A stretch of DNA of 64,000 bases from Rhyzopertha dominica. Taxonomy: Eukaryota; Arthropoda; Insecta; Coleoptera; Bostrichidae. Position numbers and translations under genes: made by a program. The stretch spans positions 38,992,942 to 39,056,941 of the forward strand of contig QCXZ01000001.1 of the NCBI GenBank assembly GCA_025024175.1, read 5' to 3'. The notes under the pieces were generated by a model. The model was not told the origin of the DNA. It ran no database searches and was given only the letters and a program-made list of their open reading frames with translations. Of the stretch, positions 26,859 to 48,723 are shown in pieces (the stretch's first letter is position 1; each line of letters begins with the position of its first letter).

Positions 26859-28132
26859 GTACAGGGTGGTCCAGTTACTGTGCTCACCCGATTGACAGCT
26901 TTATTTGAAATTTTAGAAAAAAAATGTTTTTAACAAAAGTTGTAGCGATCAAGGAGTACTCGATAATGCAGCGTTGCCCGATTTCGAGTGATGAACCAAA
27001 CTTACATTTTTTTTTAAATAGAACTACCTACTTTTTATGCGGTATTCTGATTGTGCATCAAATTCTGAGCAAAAAATTATTAAGATGCATGTGTCCTAAA
27101 ATTAATGGTTTCGGAGATACGCATGGGTGGTCCAGTTGTTGTGCTCACCCAATTGACGGCTTTATTTGAAGTTTTAGAAAAAACGTTTTAAATAAAAGTT
27201 CTAGCAACCAAGAAGTACTCGATAATGCAATATTTATGCAGCGTTGTCAGATTTCAAATAATGAACCAAACTTGCATTTTTTAAAATAGAACCACCTACT
27301 TTTTATACCGGATTCTGATTACACATCAAATTCTGATCAAAAAAAATATTAAGATACATGTGCCCTAACATTAATCGTTTCAGAGATAAGCATGGGTGGT
27401 CCAGTTACCGTGCTCACTCAGTAGGTGGTTCTACTCAAAAAAATGCAAGTTTGGTTCAGTACTCGAAATCTGAAAACACCGTAAATGTGTTATATCGCGA
27501 GGACTCCTTGGTTGCTACAACTTTTATTTAAAACATTTTTTTTTCTAAAACTTCAAATAAAACCTTCAATTGGGTGAGCACGATAACTGGACCACCCATG
27601 CGTATCTACAAAACCGTTAATTTTAGAGCACATGTATCTTAATAATTTTTTGCTCAGAATTTGATGCACAATCAGAATCCCGAATAAGAAGTAGGTAGTT
27701 CTATTTAAAAAAAATGTAAGTTTGGTTCATCACTCGAAATATGTCAACGCTGCATAAATCTGCTATAATGCATTATCGAATACTCCTTGGTCGCTACAAC
27801 TTTTGTTCAAAACATTTTTTTCTAAAACTTCAAATAAAGCTGTCAATCGGGTGAGCACGGTAACTGGACTACCCATGCGTATCTCGAAAACCGTTAATTT
27901 TAGAGCACATGTATGTGAATATTTTTTTGCTCAGAATTTAATGTATAATCAGATTACGGCATAAAAAATCGGTGGTTCTATTAAAAGAAATGCAAGTTAG
28001 GTTCATTACTGTATATCTGGCAACGCTGCATAAATGTGTTATATTGCATTATCGAGTACTCCTTGGTTTTTTTCTAAAACTTCAAATAAAGCCCTCAATT
28101 CGGTGAGCATGATAACTGGACCACCCTGTACA
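26859..28132. mobile_element. Palindromic transposon with internal ~265-nt subrepeats
   Basis: Ends TGTACAGGGTGGTCCAGTTA (26859) and its inverted partner ending near 28132. The subrepeat start GGGTGGTCCAGTT recurs in direct orientation at 26864, 27124 and 27395, and inverted at about 27600, 27877 and 28129, so about 2.5 units on the left face 2.5 on the right across a centre near 27430. Unit landmarks: GAGTACTCGATAATGCA, AACCAAACTTACATTTTTTT, TGCATCAAATTCTGAGC. No transposase. Its right end lies 370 nt upstream of the NLR-like start codon. Confidence 0.75.
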
Positions 28133-28500: not shown

Positions 28501-31500
28501 ATGGGTGATGATGAAGAATTGAACCACTTTGTACAGACAAACAACTACCATGAAAATGAGGCAAAGTAAGTACAATATTAATTATTACATCCAACACATG
28601 ATGTATTAATATATGCACCTGTATTCATTGAGTATTCCAATAAATCAGGAAGACTTACCATCATCACTGAGAAGGAAAAAAGCTTTTTGACAAACTTGGA
28701 GGTAGACAATAAATTGCAGTTAGCCAAAGCCGATTATGAACATACGTTGCGTCCAGAATGCACATACACTCATGGAAGCAAGTCAACTCCAGACACAACA
28801 GAAATTGATTTGGAATCCGCTGTTCAGAATGCATATAACAGCAGCAAGTTCCACAACTTCACTGACTATAAACAAAACCTCAATCTACCTGAAGGATGGC
28901 AGCTTTTAACAACGGGTTACAACAACAGCAAAGGTAACGGTTACTTTGGTACGGCTTTGTGGAACAAAGAACTCTGCACAATTTGGATCATCCACATGGC
29001 AACTTCCTTTACGTTTAACTTTCTGAGTATAGACTTCTTAATTAGCATGTGGCAAGCGTTATTTAGGCTAGACTTAGGTATGGTCAAAATGTTTTTCTAC
29101 GAGCCACAAATTAAATCTGCTGTGACCTTTACTGATAACGTAAAACAAGTGCTACAGAATAAAACGAGCTGCTTAGACATAAAATTTTGCTTCTCTGGAA
29201 ACTCCATAGGGTCATGGCTTGCAAGTCTTTCAACCTATTCAGTAAAACACTTACAAGTGATACAGCAAGTTAATGGAAAATACTATTTCACAGAACAAAC
29301 AGGTGCCAACGACAAAGTCTGTCAACAGCCAATTCATATTGCAGTAGACCATCATTTGCAACTGAGTAATCCAAATTTTCATGAAAGAATTAATCCAATT
29401 GAGACAGATCGAGAAACATTCCTTAGTCAAAATCCGTTTCCAACACCAAAAGAAATGGCGATGTTTGCTAAAGCGGCTTATGTTGAACTGTCAACACCTA
29501 ACTACGAAAAAGAACTGTACTTACCAGACGGATGGGAATTTTTAACTGCCGCATTCAACAATTCGTGGGGAAACTGTTATTTTGGTATTGCTTTTTGGAA
29601 TCCTATATTACATCAAATAGTTGTGGCCCACAGAGGTACTTCACCTAGTGTCTATAATCTCAAACGGAATTGGTCAATCTTATATAAAACAGATTATGTG
29701 GGCATATCAAAAATTCAGTATGTACCTCAAGTTATTTCAGCCATTACATTTGCTGAACAGATTAGGAAAGCTATTGTAGATAAACCTTCAATACGCCTCA
29801 ATTTTACTGGTCACTCTTTGGGAGGATGGCTCGCACAAGTTACCACATTTTCCGTAAAATATTTAATACTGCAAACAGATAGAAACCATTTCACGCTGCG
29901 TCTAAATACTGCAGAAAATTACCATCCACATACTATTGCTTTCGAAACTCCGGGTTGTAAAGAGATGTTGCTCAAAATGAAAAATGATTTCGCCCCAAAA
30001 TATCAGAACGGGGTGGACATCGAGAAAAGATTAGATATCACTATTTATCTTTCCAAACCAAACTTAATCAATACTAGTAATACTCATGTAGGTACCATTT
30101 ATGCTTTTAACAACAATCTGTATGGATGGGTTGACAGACTAAGCTTTGCCAGTCACGTACTTCAAACACACGCGATCGATAACATCGTTAATGCATTTCT
30201 ATCAGAGAGTAATCACTCAAAGCTTGTGCAAGTAGTATCGGATTTTCCTCAAGGCAATGATCAACGGCATCAGCTCGAAAGCTATGACGAAAAATCATGT
30301 TCTTTAAGTTTATTTTCAGAAAAAGAANTGTGTTTACTAAATATCCTTGAAACACTACAAACAGAAATGAAACATTTTACGACCAATTGTTACATTGAAC
30401 AGAAAGTTGCAGGGCTACCTAAAATTGCATTAGATGGCAATGCTTACAAATTAAAGCTTACAAATCAAAATGATCTTAATGACGTTGTTAAGTTCACAAA
30501 GCAAGGNACANCAGTTTGTCTAAAAGAGGTCTTAGAAGCTTGTAATTTAAATACCTTCACTATTACACACAATACTCTACATTTTCTGGACAACTTTGGT
30601 CTAAAAGAATTTTTGTTGGAATCTAATGAACACCTTCTGCAAGTAGTTGCCGACGATTTGATCGTAATTTCAGCAATTCACAGTATCTTAAAAAACTGTC
30701 AGGTTAACACTCTGATCGATTCAACATTATACCTAAAATGGTCACACTTAGAAAGAGTATGTAAGTTTATAGACATATCTGTGATTTTTAGTATGGCCAG
30801 ACTTGTTATAATTGAAACTGAACAGTCTTCGGGATTCAAAAATGATATTATTAACTGCAGTGAACAAAACAAAATACAAAAATGTATTTTAATTTTACCG
30901 AATAATGCTAGAATTTCAGACAGAGCGCCTTTGAAAGAAATCCACATCGAAACCTTAGATTTGGAAAGAACATCGCAAGAAAAACTTCTAATTCAAGTAC
31001 TTAAACAAAATACACCCCACATCAGTGCTACAGATGTTTTCTATCAAAATATAAACGAAGAAATTTATCTAAAGAATGTTACACTGTACCTACAAACTGA
31101 AAAAGATACAAAATTCTTTATAAGCTGCTCCACCAAAGAACATATATATGCATATCTGGATAAAGAGGGAATTAGAGAAGAGTTTGAGAAAGCAAGAGAA
31201 CAAAATCTAATCGCAATTAGAAATGGCAACAGGGAAGATAGCGAATGGATGAAAGACTTTAAAGAATTTTGCCAAATAAATCCCAAAAATCGAGTGATTT
31301 GGCTAGAAATATCAGCAAAAGTTGAAGTTCCAAGTAAAGCTTGTATCTGTAAATGCATATACGACAACAAGTTATGCATCTCTAGACAACTTCAAAGTAG
31401 GTGGTTTATAAACAAAGGTTTAATAAAGGAAGACTTGTTAAGTAACCAACTAAAAGATACATGCATCATTGTTGTCGAGGAAAACAGCGACCATGCAAAA

Positions 31501-34500
31501 GTATTAAAACAGGAACTAAATCGAGTTAAAAATGTACGTTTTGTGTCATCGATGGATGACGCAAAAGAGGAATCTAAAATAATCCATTCTCCACATCACA
31601 TCCTAAAATTCACGCGTTCACAACAAATCGAGTGGAAAAGTTCAGTTAATTCATTAAGTAGCATCAAACGCTACACAGCACTTGAACGTAACGATACAAA
31701 CATAAATGAAGATGATTTCTCAGAAATACAAAAGAACGCAGCTGATGATAATACTCCTTTTATATCTGAAACTAATTTCATTGCACAAACGAAGAAAATT
31801 GTTGTTATTGGAGATGTACCAGGAATGGGTAAAACCACCACTTGTAGAAAAGTCCTACATAATCCTAACAATGAACTACTGATTCATTTCGATCTGATAA
31901 ACCATATCGAAGACATTCGAAAACTCGATACCAATCTGGACGTAGATAAAGCTATTCAGTTCTTACTCAAAAACATATGTCATGAAAAAAGCACGTTAGA
32001 CAAAAGTTTAATAAAAAAGGCTTTAAAAGAAAATCTGCAAAACAATAACAAATCTATGGTTTTAACGCTATTATTTGATGGCTTTGATGAAATACCCCAA
32101 GAAGGTCGAAATGAACTGCACTCCAAGCTATTGAACCTCCTTCAGTTTTTGTCGTACGAAACAACAGCGAGGGTATGGGTAACTACACGGAAACATTATT
32201 TGGATATGCTGGAAAATAGATTGCTGACACTAAGTACAACGTTCAAAAAAATATCCGAATCTGTACAAAAAGAGTACTTGATGGACCACTGGCAAACTGT
32301 TTTAAAGCTACAATTAAATTCAGATGAGGATTATAATTTGAAAAGTTACACAGACGAACTATACAGCACTGTCAGACAAGCTCTGGATGCAAGTATTGGC
32401 CATTTTATGGGAATACCACTACAGATGAGAATGTTGTTAGAGGTGGCAAGACCAAAGTGTGTTGATCATAAAATAGATACAAAAGTGTTTAAAATTAATA
32501 ATGTTGTTAGCTTATACGAAGCATTTGTAGAGTCAAAATTTAAAATTTACTTTCAGGATAAATCCTGCAGTTCTAAGACAGAAACTGAAAAGAAAGAACT
32601 TAAAGAAGTGTGCCTTAGTAAACTAGAAAACCTCGCCTTTCATAATCATTTTAATTTCGAAGCTGAAACGCTATTAACAAAAAAAGAAAAGGATTTTGAA
32701 AATTTAAGTGAATGTTATAGATTAGGACTTATCCATCGAACTAACTCTACCTTCAATAACACAGAATTTATTCACAGAACGTTTCAAGAATATTTCTGTG
32801 CACAAAAACTATTTGAACTGATAAGTGACAAGCGTTCACCACATGTCGTTGATCTTCTGTTAAGCAAGGTATTACTAAAAGAAGATTACAGGATCGTCCG
32901 ACTTTTTCTGAATCATCAACTCCAAACCAGAAAACTCCAAGCAGATGATGAAACTTTTTCGGAACACATTTGTAAAATGTGGAAGCAAAACAGACATAGA
33001 CTATTTGACATAGATGGCATTTCGTGTTCCACCACATTAGCGGAAGAAAATCATGTCTCTTTAATGAACTATTTAATCAGTGTTTTGGATGACTTCGCTG
33101 CTAAAATGTTATCAATTCCAAACATACATAATGAAACACCATTAGCCATAGCAATACGAAAAGAACATTTTACTTTAGTTGACTCAATGTTACGTGAAGT
33201 GTCTATCAAACATAGAAATGAGATAGTGGAAGCATCAATATTTCACACAGACAGTTACGAAATACGAAACTATTTACAGTACAACTGCAAACTTGAGAGT
33301 TGTTACGAACAATATTTTACGAAAATGAAGAAATGTTTGAATTCATACTTTTTAAAAAATGCGGATGGCCTGTTGCAAATTGATAACCTTCTCTCAGAAA
33401 GTGACTTCTTTAAAAACGAGGCTCTACTGAGAGCTGCTTCTCATGGCTACTATGAAACAGTAAAACAGCTGGTATCACGAATGAAATATTTGGATTACTC
33501 ACATTGTAACGGACAGACTGCACTACATTTGGCTGCACAGAAAGGCTATTTTCAAATCGTACAATTCTTATTGGAACAAGGTGCTAACTGTCAAATACGA
33601 GACAATTATAACCGAACATTCCTTCATTATGCTGTTAGATATTCAGAATCATCAGACCTCGAAATACTTTACAAATATATAGATACAATCCTTGTATGTT
33701 TTGAACTAAAAGATATTGAGCCTCGAGGAAATGAAGCGCTGTTTAGGCGCATGGTTAAATGTTGTCAAGAACAATCAGATAAACGAAAAGATTTTCTGGA
33801 GTTGTTTGATTTGCTTATCGACTGTGGAGTTGACGTAAATAAAACAGAGAGGAATAAAAAAACATTGTTAATGTATGCTTGTAAAAATACTCTAATAGAT
33901 GTTGTTCAGTATTTAATAAGCAAAGGCGCCAAAGTAAATCTTAAAGATAAAACTGGCAAAACAGCTTTAGATCATGCTATAGGCAACTTTAGTCTCACTG
34001 AAAAGAAAAAAACAGTTTTTTTGAACATCCTAAATCAAAGTAAGTCTAACTATATTGATCCTAGTGACGTCAATATTGAACTACTTCAGTCGTCCAGTCA
34101 AAAGTGTTTAAAAGAAGTAGTAGAACATTTGATATCAAAAGGAGTTGATGTAAATGTTGCAGATCAAAATGGCATGACAGCATTACTTTCAGTTATAAAA
34201 CAATACATCAGTAGTGCACCAACAGCACAAGCAATCTACAGAATTGTAAATATTTTAATTGAAAATGGTTCGGACTTTAATGGATTTAATAATGAGAAAA
34301 TTACAATACTTACATGTGCACAACAACATAGCCTGTCAGACATGATTAGGTATTTGATAACAGCAGGTGCCGATGTAAACAAAGACTACTTTCATAGTAC
34401 ACCACTACATATGACAATAGATTGTCACAGCACGCAATCATCAGTAGTTTTAGATGTTTCAAAAATCTTGGTTGAAAAAGGAGCTAACATTAATGTTGCT

Positions 34501-35520
34501 GATTATGTAGGTACCACACCACTTATGTCAGCTTGTCAAAATAATTTACCCGAAATAGTTGAATATTTGATATCAAATGAAGCCAATTTGCACGCTACAA
34601 ATAATTATGGCGAAACAGCACTACATTATCTTACACATCAACAGACATTTGGTTGCAAAAGAAAAACACATATAATTCTCAACGTTGCAAGGATCTTAAT
34701 TGAAAATGGGAGTAACGTTGACGTTACTAATAAGAATGGTTTTACACCACTCATGTTAGCCAGTCAAAACTGTTTACCCGAAGTAGTTGAATATTTTATA
34801 TCAAAGGGAGCCAACGTAAACGCTACAAATAAATATGGTGAGACAGCACTACATTCTGCTTTAACTCAAATATCTGACAAAAAGGAACCACAGAAAATTC
34901 TCAGTGTTGCAAAGATTTTGACTGAAAATGGAACCAACGATGACGCCGCTGATAAGGATGGTTTTACACCCCTTATGTTAGCTTGTCAGAATGGTTTACC
35001 TGTAGTAGTTGAGTATTTAATATCCAATGGAGTCAATGTGAACGCTAAATCTGAAAATTGCTCGACAGCGTTACTACTGACTGTAGATCCGTTTTTTGTC
35101 AACAAAAATGAACCGGAAACAATTTTTGGTGTTGTAAGAACTTTGATTGAAAATTGTGCTGACACTAACGCTGCTGATAATGACGGTGATACACCACTTA
35201 TGTTATCCAGCGCATCTGGTTTGCTTGAAGTAGTTCAATATCTGATATCAAAAGGAGCCAATTTGCACGCTACAAATAAAGATGGCTACACAGCACTACA
35301 TTATGCTGTAGNTATTCATAAATTTGATTGCAAAAAGGATCCACAAACAATTCTCCACCTTGCAAGAATTTTGATTGAATATGGTGCTGACANTGACATT
35401 GCNAATAAAAATGGTGTTACACCACTCATGCTAGCCAGTGAAGTTGGTTTACGCGAGGTAGTAGAATATCTGATACTGAAAAGTGTACATCTACCTACTG
35501 CAGAGCCGCTCTTTCTATAA
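28501..35520 (+). CDS. NLR-like STAND protein: tandem lipase-like domains, NACHT ATPase, ankyrin repeats
   Basis: Two coding exons, 28501-28565 and 28653-35520, give about 2310 residues. Exon 1 starts at an ATG and ends at a GTAAGT donor; the acceptor ending at 28652 restores frame. A TTTGCAG at 28457-28463 could be a 5'UTR acceptor. Order: lipase-like domain 1 (about 80-260) with GNSIG in place of the nucleophile motif; lipase-like domain 2 (about 289-538) with HRGT (348-351), GHSLGGW around Ser410, and candidate Asp483 and His500; a linker of unknown fold (about 540-1065); NACHT (about 1068-1235) with Walker A GDVPGMGKTTT (1075-1085), Walker B LLFDGFDEI, sensor TTR near 1200; a winged-helix-like FIHRTFQEYF near 1395; then about 20 ankyrin repeats to the C terminus. 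By STAND family logic the ankyrins sense, NACHT oligomerises and the hydrolase is the effector; that is inference. No signal peptide or membrane segment is evident, so probably cytosolic. Five Ns fall inside the CDS (30328, 30507, 30511, 35312, 35393 region). Confidence 0.9.
28566..28652 (+). other. Intron 1 of the NLR-like gene
   Basis: An 87-nt intron with a strong GTAAGT donor. Two candidate acceptors lie 4 nt apart (CAG ending 28648 and AAG ending 28652). Only the second keeps the 2-nt carry-over of exon 1 in frame with the long exon; the first reaches TGA within seven codons. This decides the start: without exon 1 the long ORF has no early in-frame ATG, since its apparent start at 28687 is TTG. 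Confidence 0.65.
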
Positions 35521-35966
35521 TAAAACTAATGTTTCAAAATACGGTAGTTTCAATAACGACTTGTTTTAATAATTCAAATTAGAATTACTGCAACATATAA
35601 CATACCACCGATTTGTTCAATTATGTTTTAAACATATTTAATATTAGGTTTTTACATATTTAATTTATATATATTATATAGCCATATTTTAATAAGTAAT
35701 ACTTAAATGTTTAGCAAGTAGTTGTAGGTATGTAAACATATTTATTACTTTTAGAATACACCGACTTCATATAAAAATTATACAACTGCACTTACCTATA
35801 AGTAGCAAATAGGAATAAACTCGTTAAGCTTTATATGCTTGTATAAATTTTGTACTATATATTTTAATTATACGTAACTTACTATTTTAACTAATTTAAT
35901 TAATAATTTGTGGTTATTATACTCACTCTTTGGTACCTGTATTGAACAACAAAATACAAAAATAAA
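35519..35966 (+). promoter_or_regulatory. 3' flank of the NLR-like gene with candidate poly(A) signals
   Basis: AATAAA overlaps the stop codon (35519-35524) and occurs again at 35961-35966. The flank up to about 35970 resembles the flank of the ankyrin pseudogene (about 22850-23190), including GTATTNAACAACAAAAT, which supports a shared, duplicated 3'UTR. Confidence 0.4.
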
Positions 35967-45000: not shown

Positions 45001-48000
45001 TAGGCAACCAAATCTACACGTTTGCATGATTGTCCAATGCAATGTGGTTTTATGTTTGCGAATATTCTAGTTTTGGTGCTAGACAGCGAGATGACCTGCA
45101 GAAGCATCAGTTACGATCATAATTGTTCATTATATATTGTTGACGCTTCCAAAGTAATTGCTGTGCATCAAACGTGCCAGGAAGATGACAAAGGCGTTCT
45201 ATTTTATAGTTGCAAACGACAATCTATGAGACTCATTATACGAACAGCCGATTACCGCTCACAATGGTTTACAAGTATTACCTGAAGCTGTCGGAAATAA
45301 CAGACGGGTTCGGCACGTTCCACTGTTTTGCAGCGAAGTGGACCGTATCCAAAAATTGTGTTTAGGCCTTTTTAGATTTTTTTGCCGTACACATAAATCA
45401 ATGAGCATTATTTTGTATTATTATTGGAATGTGATGGCGAGAAGCAACCTTTAGATAAAACGCAAGAAGTGACTTGAACTCCATGATCATCTGAAGAACT
45501 GTTAAATCCGGGCCTTCAAAGAGAAAGATAAGATCCGACAAGGGCAGTTTTAAAAAATTTACTGCAACTCACGCAGATCTTATTAGAAGAAACATTTATG
45601 AAATGTTATTCCAACAATCGCCGTGTTATATAAAAAATTGAAAAATGATAATATTATCGATTGCTCCGAGCATACCCTGCAAAAGTATGTTAAAACCATT
45701 GGCTTTTCAATGAAAAAGGTGGAGAGAAGCAATGCTTGATGGAAAGCCAGGTAATAAGAAAGTGGAGATACCATTATTTAAAATCTATAAAAATGTATAG
45801 GCAGGAAAATCGTCAGATATTTTTCCTCGACGAAACATATTACGATACCCATGATACAATAAAAAAAGGATGGTTTGATGACTCAGGGAAGTGCAACGTC
45901 AATACTCCGGCGTTAAAAGGAAAAAGAATAATGATTCTACACAAAGGAGGTGAATATGGTTTCGTTCCTGGAGCCCTGAATCTTGGATGTAAAAACTTAA
46001 AAGAAGCAAGCGCCGATTATCATTCTGATATGAATGCGAAAGTGTTTGAAAATCGGTTCGAAATCATTTTATTGCCCAAATTGCCACCAAACAGCATCAT
46101 AGTAATGGACAACGCTAGTTACCATTCCGAGGAACTGGATAAGATTCCAAATACAACAACTAATAAGGCAACCATTCAAGAGTTTTTAAGAAAAGAAGAT
46201 TTATATTTCGAAGAGGACTACAGAAAAAAACAATTGTTGGAAGTGCTTGGAACAAAAAAAATTTCGAAGAAATTTAAAATTGACATTCTCGCTTCTGAAT
46301 GTGGACACACCATTCTAGGATTACCCTCATATCATTGCATTTTCAACCCCATTGAGATGATATGGGGGCAGTTGAAACAAAAAATTCGACAAGAGAACAC
46401 CGGTGGAAAATTTAGCAATGAAATGCTGCTAAAAAGTAGACACGAAGCTGAAATAACAAGTGTCCATGCATGGAGAAATTCAGTGCGGCATTAACTGGAC
46501 ATTGAAAATCGGTACAGAGCGAATCATGTATAAGAATTAATAATAGAAGTTAATCGTGATTTTAGCAGTGAAAGTGATAGTGAGTAATTTTTTTTTTTAG
46601 TTTGTGACTCTTGTAATGTGCTTATTAACAGGCTGTAATGAACATAATCGATACCATGTATAAATTTTATTGTGCACTATTGTAAATTTTTTCTAACAAA
46701 TGTAAATAACTTTCTACTTACTAATTTGTATGTTTCTGTATTAAATTTGTATAAATTCGTTATGACATGCAAAGGCTTTTATTTTATACATCACAAAATT
46801 TAAACCCGTTAAGAGTATCACATAAAAATAGATCGCGGGTTGCGCCAGTTAGCATCAGGTATGCATTAAATAAAATTTATTATAAAAGCTTCTATGTTTT
46901 ATTGATTGCTAAATTATCACAACTAAGAAATTTCAAAAATTTATAGTGGAGAAGTTAAAATTTTAGCCAACAAGATTTTTTTGAATACGGCCCATTTAGG
47001 AACTTTGAATCGTGCCACTAATCCCAATAGTTTAGGACGGCCGACCATAAGGTTGTAAAAACCCTCTGTCAGTCTCATAGATCGTTGCTTGATACTTTAA
47101 TCGAACATACTTATTCGAAATCAATGTAAATATATTTTATTTTTGTTTTTTCACTCAACATGACTCATGTCCCAACTATAAAGTGACAAATACAATTTTA
47201 ACATTGTATATGTGGATAAACAGAACTTCATTGCACCACATGGAATTTGAACCCAAGACCTCATGGACCAGAAGCAAACGTGCTACACAATGTACCACAG
47301 TTTATGTCATACATGAACCTCAAATAAACATTCAAATTCCAACCACTACCTCATAGTTAGGAGGCCGACACTCACCCATCAAAAGTGCGTAGGAAGTATC
47401 CTTACTAGTAAAGAAATAATCTTGTTTATTATATTCGGTAAGAAACTCTTACCGCTATTATATGTTAAAAATCGCTCATCTGACGCATTTACATCCGCTA
47501 ACATTTAGCTTGAAACATATATCCCGCTAACCCGCTGCCCTACAGGTGAAACCGTTTGGCCACGAACGTCGGCCTCTTAAAGGAAGACAACAATATACCC
47601 AAGATATCATCCCCAAGATAAAGACCACCATACCGTTTCAGTAGTTCGAGATATCCTGCATAAAGCACAAAATTATAATTTCGATTACCATAACAACAGT
47701 ATAGACAAACAGTTCAAAATCTGCAAGCATCACCAAACACCTGGAGCTTACACACCAAATTCCTAGAGCAGAGGCCCCTCTACGACCAGTTGCCATAATG
47801 ACTTCTCTTCTTTGGATGGGAGGAGTTATGTCATAACGAATCTAAGTGATGAACAAAAAACGAAAGAATTTCTCATCGAGATGCACACCCGAGTCACGAT
47901 GCATCAGCGAAACATCGCTGATAACGACCTGATAACGCAAATCCACCTTCATTAGGAGGACACGATGTTGGTAGGTTATTTTTTCCAAGCTTCTTGTTAC

Positions 48001-48723
48001 AGTTCATCCGAAACAAATTTTTACAATTAAGTGTTAAAAAATGTTTTTTTTATACGAATTTAAACTGGCAGGTGCCCACCAAATAAAGATTGCATTCTTT
48101 TTCTATAATAAACAAATAGAAAAATCCGTATCTACTTTTATGACATCGAGTGAGCTCTTATGTTAAGTACATTGGAATAATGTCAACTTACCTATGTGTA
48201 AATACAGTACAGTAAGCACAAATGAAAGAGTATCCGTTTTGTAGTCATATGGTAACCATAAATCTAGCGAAAGCTTACGCTCTGAATCAAACAAGGTTTT
48301 CAGAGCAAGCATACAGTTAGTGAATTCAAAATAAAATATATAAATCTTGCTGTACAATCGAATTCTCTTAAGGGTATCATTTACCATTTCGTCACTTTCA
48401 CTGCTCTGAAGAGTTGGTTTCTGGTCGTAAAACTTAATAACAGCTTTAACTTGTTTGTGTCTTTTTAACAACACGAGAGTTTTAAAGGGAATTATGCTTA
48501 TACAAGTTAACAGAAATGCATTTTCACATATTCTTCTCCAATTCGTCTCCTTTTCTACAATATACTTCGCTAGAGGTGATAATATTATTGGTACCATTAA
48601 AACAATTTCCATCAGAAAACTATATAACAGATAGATGGGTACACTGATGTTTTCAATGGGGTAAGCGCCAGCCAAACTTAAGCCAACAACGTTGGTTTTT
48701 AAAGAATCTTTAAACACTCCCAT
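39016..48723 (-). CDS. Insect odorant receptor (7tm_6 family), six exons
   Basis: Exons in transcript order (complement): 48723-48192, 43403-43172, 43116-43017, 39433-39329, 39278-39126, 39069-39016; they join in frame to 391 residues and a TAG stop, the usual size for the family. All splice sites are GT-AG (donors GTAAGT, GTACTA, GTAAGA, GTAAGT, GTAACA); intron phases are 1, 2, 0, 0, 0. Family features: an N-terminal SLAGAYPI segment, LWLPYDYKTDTLSF near the end of exon 1, NAAFDTLITGLIMH in exon 2, VEQTFFLPAF and SSILVIC in exon 3, FLCFIGTVLTEQ in exon 4, GDWWNY, KNLLILMERAKRP and DLSLETFAL in exon 5, and a short C-terminal exon of 17 residues. Insect ORs are ligand-gated cation channels with Orco in sensory neuron dendrites (family knowledge); the ligand is unknown. 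Introns 1 (4.8 kb) and 3 (3.6 kb) are crowded with transposon remains. Confidence 0.92.
39735..39812. repeat. Possible hAT-like transposon end
   Basis: A GC-rich block (GGGAGGGGTGTTCTAACCC, CCCTCCTCCATGGGCACGCC, CATTGG) in AT-rich sequence inside intron 3 of the odorant receptor. CAATGGCGTGCCCA-like ends are common in hAT elements; the other end was not found. Confidence 0.3.
40208..41178 (-). mobile_element. THAP-domain DNA transposon remnant with terminal inverted repeats
   Basis: Ends: GGGACCGCCAAAACGC at 40213-40228 and its inverted partner GCGTTTTGGCGGTGGC near 41157-41172. Between them the minus strand reads KCCFVHGYKSTSVSTANKFF then VTVPRD (frame 41066-40875), APRRDMPKSQFVFLL, CKDHL, EEDMKNYMRFKLIEG and DVVPHIFDC down to about 40620. 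This is the order of a C2CH THAP zinc finger (CC, then C..H of CKDHL) and its following segment, as in THAP-bearing transposon proteins. Frameshifts and stops break it, and no catalytic region is seen, so it is a truncated copy. It lies in intron 3 of the odorant receptor, same strand. Confidence 0.7.
41179..43010. other. Odorant receptor intron 3, remaining sequence
   Basis: No additional exon or recognisable element. A short similarity (CCGGRTGCAACTA, TTAGACAAAYGCTA) links 42412-42435 with 39890-39915. Confidence 0.4.
43525..43712. repeat. Near-perfect 188-nt hairpin in odorant receptor intron 1
   Basis: Arms 43525-43594 and 43643-43712 are almost perfect complements (about 70 nt; ATTGATTTAAGATAACGAAA opposite its complement; one visible mismatch, CAGAAGTTTT against AAAACTCCTG), with a 48-nt loop. 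No coding content. Either a very young MITE or a source of hairpin RNA. Confidence 0.8.
44080..44425 (+). pseudogene. Tc1/mariner-like transposase remnant (copy 3)
   Basis: Reading through frameshifts gives FPLNERLNGQVYLDFL, then LWLHHNGTPARQVVEFF and NKWIGREGVVKRPARPPN. This corresponds to the family block around the second catalytic Asp (D/N-GAPPH...) and the RWIGRRG-WPARSPDLTPLDFF region, here with several substitutions. It is the same family as the relics at 5280-5885 and 8720-9110. It directly precedes the gypsy fragment. Confidence 0.65.
44640..44962 (+). pseudogene. Gypsy-type LTR retrotransposon integrase C-terminal fragment
   Basis: Frames around 44640-44735 give VDKLREALLENHGLVRQK, and 44740-44960 give FNEGDLVWLYNP followed, after frameshifts, by VVHLNRLF and YRGDP. 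This is the typical end of a gypsy/Ty3 integrase (the region before and around the DLVWL box). At least two frame changes and a stop break it. No LTR or protease/RT part is visible nearby; only the tail of the pol gene remains, in intron 1 of the odorant receptor. Confidence 0.7.
45590..46580 (+). pseudogene. DDE transposase (Tc1/IS630-like, DDE_3 type), broken
   Basis: The main open stretch is 45736-46494 (252 codons). It carries the three acidic motifs of the DDE fold: FFLDETYYDTH, IIVMDNASYHS and NPIEMIWGQLKQK, in the order D-D-E. N-terminal family sequence (EHTLQKYVKTIGFSMKK) lies in another frame at about 45640-45735, so a frameshift separates it from the catalytic part. At the C end a TAA at 46492 and another near 46530 interrupt sequence that continues in frame (IENRYRANH, then an SESDSE tail) to a TAA near 46577. 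It sits in intron 1 of the odorant receptor, opposite strand. Terminal inverted repeats were not found. Confidence 0.85.
46581..48160. other. Odorant receptor intron 1, first part; no other gene
   Basis: Only a tRNA-like segment (47226-47300) and a short inverted repeat (TAGGAGGCCGAC near 47358 against GTCGGCCTCTTAA near 47570) were seen. Confidence 0.4.
47226..47300 (-). tRNA. tRNA-like pseudogene or tRNA-derived SINE head
   Basis: Minus strand: GTAGCACGTTTGCTTCTGGT then GGGTTCAAATTCC, which resembles a tRNA D-arm/A box and a T-arm/B box at about the right spacing. The T stem has a mismatch and a G-T pair, and no acceptor stem is convincing, so not a functional tRNA. Confidence 0.4.

Follow-up and report, generated by a model that had tools for sequence, protein, structure and literature searches.

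Accounts of insect immunity usually centre on Toll, Imd, RNAi and STING, and one long gene of the beetle Rhyzopertha dominica raises the question of whether an insect can also encode an NLR-like receptor. Drosophila and C. elegans are said to be without NLRs (PMC7308585). The gene lies in a 64,000-nucleotide stretch of DNA (the window; C1:38992942-39056941) of a 479-Mb genome assembled in 138 contigs, on a contig (C1) of 44.5 Mb. An earlier note on this stretch had described one intact protein combining hydrolase domains, a NACHT ATPase and about 20 ankyrin repeats, and had noted that insects are generally described as without classical NLRs.

The main open frame stands apart from all others in the window, in which the runner-up among the stop-to-stop frames (listed from 85 codons upwards) has 267 codons. 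The chance that a random frame with the gene's own base composition stays open over such a span is about 3e-78. Counted from a TTG at 28687 to 35520, the protein has 2,277 amino acids, and six N bases inside the coding sequence give six X in one translation and four in that of Biopython. The frame of the ATG at 28501, however, meets in-frame stops at 28567 and 28579, so that 28501-35520 is not literally one intact coding sequence, as had been supposed; what holds is the long frame that opens at 28582. A GTAAGT donor at 28566 would end a first exon in phase 2, followed by an intron of 87 or 117 nt according to the choice between two in-phase acceptors, both of which are poor and neither of which has a good pyrimidine tract. 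In each of the three paralogues scanned (C75a, C75c and C43a) an ATG is likewise followed by a phase-2 donor, GTAAGT or GTATGT, with an acceptor in phase 60-95 nt downstream; the ATG was a chosen one, and in C75c and C43a alternative ATGs or GT sites yield other frames. All three C53 copies have a main-frame ATG upstream of the first, half-length lipase, and the C86 copy has none there. It is likely that the window copy has a short first exon, as predicted from these signals. The first ATG within its open frame sits inside the half-lipase, and a start there would keep lipase 2, the NACHT and the ankyrins whole.

The proposed effector-switch-sensor order, hydrolase then NACHT then ankyrins, is borne out within one open frame by the positions of Pfam and HMM matches (Table 1). 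By whole-protein E-values, Lipase_3 (E 8.4e-9, 35.9 bits against a cut-off of 22, in two stretches), NACHT (E 1.1e-6, 29.0 bits against 26.7) and ankyrin families (Ank_2, E 4.5e-94) all lie above cut-off, and structure models support both the hydrolase and the NACHT fold. The plural in "hydrolase domains" is correct for one domain and a half. Lipase copy 1 stops short of the region of the acid and the histidine in all six tandem copies aligned, among which the serine is retained solely in the window copy; as read from this alignment, it is a catalytically incomplete half domain. The second copy, for which the structure model backs a complete fold, is class-3-lipase-like by profile, predicted fold and GxSxG nucleophile (GHSLG). 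The usual class-3 Asp position is apparently not conserved as Asp, and the putative catalytic acid was assigned to E/D420 by conservation alone.

No Pfam family matched the spacer that leads from the lipase to the switch. The structure model of the NACHT region matches NLRC4, NLRP3 and NOD2, and other fold matches include NLRP structures of the oocyte cytoplasmic lattice and the SCMC. The Walker A and Walker B motifs claimed at the outset are both present: the two G and the K of Walker A are invariant across the 30 rows of alignment A5, and DGFDE fits the Walker B signature of NACHT proteins, D[GAS]hDE. Moreover, GIP or GVP occurs in all nine copies with an open frame, and TTR and FIHRT each occur in eight, the C3 copy having ATR and FSHPT. 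By Walker A, Walker B, profile and modelled fold the window protein is a NACHT-type STAND NTPase. It falls outside the strict animal NLR class (NACHT plus LRR), as Pfam searches up to E 1 found neither a C-terminal LRR nor an N-terminal CARD, PYD or death domain; unlike NLRC4, NLRP3 and NOD2, it has ankyrins in place of LRRs and a lipase in place of CARD or PYD.

The third part of the protein is an ankyrin array, including a super-repeat of about 225 nt at 34428-35538, but of the roughly 20 repeats first estimated the repeat model counts 15; this model was built from paralogues, and weak or diverged repeats may escape it. Besides these 15, it detects 34, 31, 19, 12, 6, 5, 5 and 2 repeats in the other eight open copies, with 2,796 of the 2,830 codons of C43a available for counting since that frame ended with the fetched stretch. 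This spread bears on a rival explanation, in which the protein would have a structural or developmental role unrelated to immunity, like that of several vertebrate NLRPs in oocytes. The matches to lattice and SCMC structures speak for such a role; a common fold, however, demonstrates no function, and the retained active-site residues of the lipase and the widely varying array size are unlike a structural housekeeping protein. We regard this explanation as quite improbable.

Table 1. Features of the lipase-NACHT-ankyrin gene, in window coordinates.
Feature	Position	Strand	Basis
Proposed coding exon 1 (MGDDEELNHFVQTNNYHENEA plus two bases), before GTAAGT donor	28501..28565	+	sequence; predicted
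Proposed phase-2 intron	28566..28652	+	acceptor 28652, alternative acceptor 28682; predicted
Main open frame, 2,312 codons (28582-35517) plus stop (35518-35520)	28582..35520	+	open-frame listing
Lipase copy 1, N-terminal half of domain, residues 58-219	28858..29343	+	HMM E 2e-25; alignment of 6 tandem copies
Lipase copy 2, complete class-3-lipase-like domain, residues 271-504	29497..30198	+	Pfam Lipase_3; HMM E 4e-77; model pLDDT 81
Ser377, nucleophile of GHSLG	29815..29817	+	GHSLG in 9/9 open-frame copies
Glu420, candidate catalytic acid	29944..29946	+	E/D in 9/9 open-frame copies; putative role
His495, candidate catalytic His	30169..30171	+	9/9 open-frame copies; putative role
Spacer, alternating strands and helices in model	30199..31782	+	Pfam search; structure model
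NACHT NTPase and winged-helix region, residues 1033-1409	31783..32913	+	Pfam NACHT; HMM E 2e-96; structure model
Walker A GDVPGMGKT, residues 1042-1050	31810..31836	+	sequence; fits GxxxxGK[TS]
Walker B DGFDE, residues 1131-1135	32077..32091	+	9/9 open-frame copies
Ankyrin array, 15 repeats detected, residues 1482-2268	33130..35490	+	repeat model; Pfam Ank families

The gene is not alone in its genome. Residues 1-1504 match 17 genomic places, read as about 11 gene copies plus small fragments: the window copy on C1, three copies on C75, three on C53, two on C43 and one each on C86 and C3. Nine copies have a single long frame, which spans 1,506-2,903 codons and in C3 starts within the lipase; the other two, C75b and C43b, are broken. 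Eight of the nine open copies form one clade (SH-aLRT 100), and the C3 copy groups with the database proteins P0002, P0061 and P0108 in a group of 12 rows. No NACHT beyond this family was found in the genome in searches with PF05729 and with P0137, a lipase-less NACHT protein. The PF05729 search gave seven matches, all in family copies, and missed four of the 11 copies, the window copy among them; the P0137 search, with 33 of 72 candidates scored, gave six NACHT places in family copies and two ankyrin places, and the N-terminal module of P0137 had no genomic match among the same 33. Eight of the 11 copies (on C43, C53, C75 and C86) sit no more than about 2.1 Mb from the end of their contig, and for both C43 copies this distance is at most 55 kb. 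These eight are perhaps subtelomeric; the copies of the window, C53c and C3 are not near ends. Exact (TTAGG)6 is absent from the 479-Mb assembly, and thus the usual insect telomere repeat seems to be missing or unassembled.

Most database relatives of the window protein are metagenomic, as would be expected if a bacterial gene had entered the insect assembly through contamination or misassembly. Nevertheless, the gene stands on a 44.5-Mb contig, with an odorant receptor fragment (7tm_6, E 3.6e-7; 48163-48723, reverse strand) 13 kb away as the single sequence sign of an insect host, about 11 diverged copies are spread over six contigs of 8.5-69.6 Mb, and there are donor sites of eukaryote type, which makes an artefact of this kind exceedingly improbable. 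The gene is supported as a host gene, one of about 11 paralogues. Elsewhere in the window, dense diverged direct and inverted repeats of 44-176 nt, mostly 82-95% alike, occupy 26864-28132 directly upstream of the gene and look like nested MITE-type elements, and a DDE_3 transposase fragment (E 5e-11), which we take to be mariner-like, lies at 45736-46494.

Substitution rates indicate how this family has evolved. In 31 of the 36 copy pairs dS is at least 1.5, and in 18 of these 31 it lies beyond correction; on synonymous divergence, the family is thus old in its beetle host. Over the lipase-to-NACHT part, dN/dS is 0.34 between the window copy and C75a (dS 0.90), 0.28-0.42 within C53 and 0.28 between C43a and C75c. 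By domain, lipase 2 and NACHT give 0.23-0.37 over five pairs, with upper 95% bootstrap bounds of at most 0.54, and in none of the domains of these pairs does the ratio exceed 1. The ankyrin part has the highest ratio of all domains in every one of the five pairs, and exceeds the rest in 498, 499, 500, 470 and 500 of 500 bootstraps, respectively; three of these pairs are C53 pairs and hence mutually non-independent, and misregister of repeats could inflate the ankyrin values. Judged by these ratios, effector and switch have been under past purifying selection and the ankyrin array has changed faster. Together with a repeat number of between 2 and 34, this faster change fits what is expected of a sensor.

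Whether such constraint still applies to each copy is a separate matter. The first open piece of the broken C43b has a dN/dS of 0.25 against C43a and 0.32 against C75c, as low as between intact copies, and the low ratio therefore speaks of past constraint and not of the present function of a given copy. A decaying relic without present function would agree with this, with the two broken copies among the 11 and with the fact that the unspliced window copy has no in-frame ATG upstream of the first lipase. The window copy has nevertheless kept 2,312 codons open, its non-ankyrin domains show a dN/dS of 0.26-0.33 against C75a (upper bounds 0.38-0.51), and the phase-2 donor recurs in three of three paralogues scanned, so that decay appears very improbable.

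That insects would lack such proteins is not supported as far as NACHT and ankyrins go. In 2016, NACHT homologues of an ankyrin-latrotoxin protein of prophage WO were described from across the arthropods, on contigs that also carry animal genes (PMC5062602); insect NACHT-ankyrin proteins are thus not new, and share with the window protein the combination of NACHT and ankyrins in host chromosomes. The word lipase is absent from the main text of that report, and a literature search found no title on insect lipase-NACHT proteins, one match concerning nematode-trapping fungi. Our NACHT search returned 42 proteins, including relatives in eight named insects (mosquito, ant, bee, two beetles, stick insect, cockroach and damselfly), seven of which have ankyrin domains, Onthophagus being the one without. 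With the lipase profile made here, none of the eight carries a lipase, whereas the window protein is lipase-armed. Many lipase-less NACHT proteins from other insects and from metagenomes (e.g., P0113, P0127, P0137, P0138 and P0145) have instead an N-terminal FDD..QxK module without a Pfam match; among 22 chosen lipase-less proteins FDD is present in 20 and QxK in all 20 of those, six of them from the eight named insects. This module, which in our view resembles PD-(D/E)XK nucleases, is possibly a nuclease effector of that type.

The lipase-NACHT combination does occur in other arthropods. A lipase-NACHT profile search yielded 105 proteins, and in the pooled set of 150 sequences, part of which also served to build the profiles used for the domain calls, 106 have the lipase and 77 both lipase and NACHT. 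Among named species, both domains occur together in the mite Blomia tropicalis (P0001, P0006, P0007, P0052 and P0119, the last found via NACHT), the spider Parasteatoda tepidariorum (P0062) and the springtail Folsomia candida (P0079), with 28-40% identity over 11-36% of the query. As in the window protein, the lipase precedes the NACHT, and some Blomia proteins have two lipase regions; ankyrins follow in mite and spider, whereas the Folsomia protein has none by Pfam. Another Blomia protein, P0025, has two family lipase regions together with unrelated Pfam domains under a CCHC-type name, and is possibly a fusion or a gene-model error.

Bacterial relatives hold parts of this plan. No named bacterium among the 150 pooled sequences has lipase and NACHT together; a plasmid protein of Symbiodolus (P0067) has ankyrin and lipase without NACHT, and one MAG each of Wolbachia and of a gammaproteobacterium encodes NACHT proteins that have no lipase. 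A further relative, P0004 (3,973 aa), carries OTU and ankyrin domains by precomputed annotation, and lipase and NACHT by the profiles made here. Two genes of an Amoebophilaceae MAG place a related lipase (34% identity, best segment) ahead of a STAND-type switch in one chain, with NB-ARC (above cut-off in one of the two) and TPRs where the window protein has NACHT and ankyrins; these genes, L001:7686-12647 and L002:7689-11336, each adjoin other long ORFs. A NACHT tree of 73 rows, of which 43 carry the lipase and 30 do not, requires a minimum of nine changes of the lipase label; the tree was built quickly and has many weak forks, the count has no shuffled control beside it, and some truncated proteins entered as lipase-less. 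With their long branches, the trees give no clear direction to any transfer between arthropods and symbionts.

Among more distant systems, Avs-type bacterial STAND proteins (Avs4) have another effector and sensor, PADLOC models having matched the ankyrin part only. The hydrolases of fungal NLRs belong to other hydrolase families. By size, alpha/beta hydrolases rank in the top four NLR effector families of fungi, and NLRs with SesB-like alpha/beta-hydrolase or patatin domains resemble the window protein in their N-terminal hydrolase effector, there linked to regulated cell death (PMC9815663).

These symbiont relatives also invite the explanation that the gene is a laterally acquired symbiont toxin or manipulation module, which retained the plan of symbiont ankyrin proteins and is now non-immune in the insect, e.g., in genetic conflict or the germline. 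P0067, P0004 and the NACHT proteins of the two MAGs would fit, as would long frames with at most one short proposed intron. Wolbachia ankyrin genes have often moved into ants (PMC13320244), Folsomia is reported to have eight Wolbachia ANK genes (PMC5490193), and in some CifB toxins nucleases and ankyrins are found together with an ATPase-like domain (PMC12445526); the word lipase is absent from the main texts of the first and last of these papers. The age of the family in the beetle and the lipase-NACHT relatives in mite, spider and springtail argue against this origin, and no latrotoxin, TcdA/B or nuclease domain was found in the window protein by Pfam up to E 1, which separates it from symbiont ankyrin toxins of the CifB or latrotoxin type and from the prophage WO NACHT-ankyrin-latrotoxin protein, with which, by description, it has NACHT and ankyrins in common (PMC5062602). 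Phage records gave no match. We consider a symbiont module unlikely, if worth keeping in mind.

The reading we prefer, which we hold to be about evenly poised between right and wrong, is that of a host-encoded, NLR-like STAND receptor of the insect with a gated lipase, from a set of about 11 paralogues. It would be a possible insect equivalent of the danger sensors of other animals, plants and fungi. Domain order, intact motifs, predicted folds and the multicopy family are all evident from sequence and models, and a conserved effector and switch are joined to a faster-changing sensor. Most likely, the protein works like a hydrolase-armed NLR, in which the ankyrin array would gate the NACHT and clustering would activate the lipase; its function would lie in immunity or cell death. 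At rest, the NACHT would be ADP-bound and the lipase held inactive. An infection- or damage-related ligand, such as a protein from a pathogen or symbiont or a host protein that has been modified, would bind the variable ankyrin array, and nucleotide exchange would then open and oligomerise the NACHT. The clustered lipases would hydrolyse membrane phospholipid or another ester lipid, leading to a lipid signal or to local membrane damage and cell death, and the dead half-lipase in front may serve as a non-catalytic partner or lid for the active one. On this reading, the module belongs to a NACHT family present in arthropods and in certain bacteria of theirs, whose N-terminal effector, either the lipase or the nuclease-like FDD..QxK module, is exchanged.

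In a broader and more tentative proposal, which we think somewhat doubtful, arthropods would have an NLR-type system of their own, of NACHT receptors mostly with ankyrins and with swappable enzymatic N-termini (nuclease-like ones in other insects), which would have been built from the effectors of intracellular symbionts and traded with them, represented here by a lipase-armed repertoire of about 11 copies with diversifying sensors. If so, this system would have been overlooked because it has neither LRRs nor death folds. A multicopy family under constraint, in which a lipase effector and an NLR-type switch are joined to a faster-changing sensor, would make the question of NLR-like receptors in insects directly testable, and the repeated exchange of effectors and the relatives in symbionts suggest from where such receptors may have arisen.
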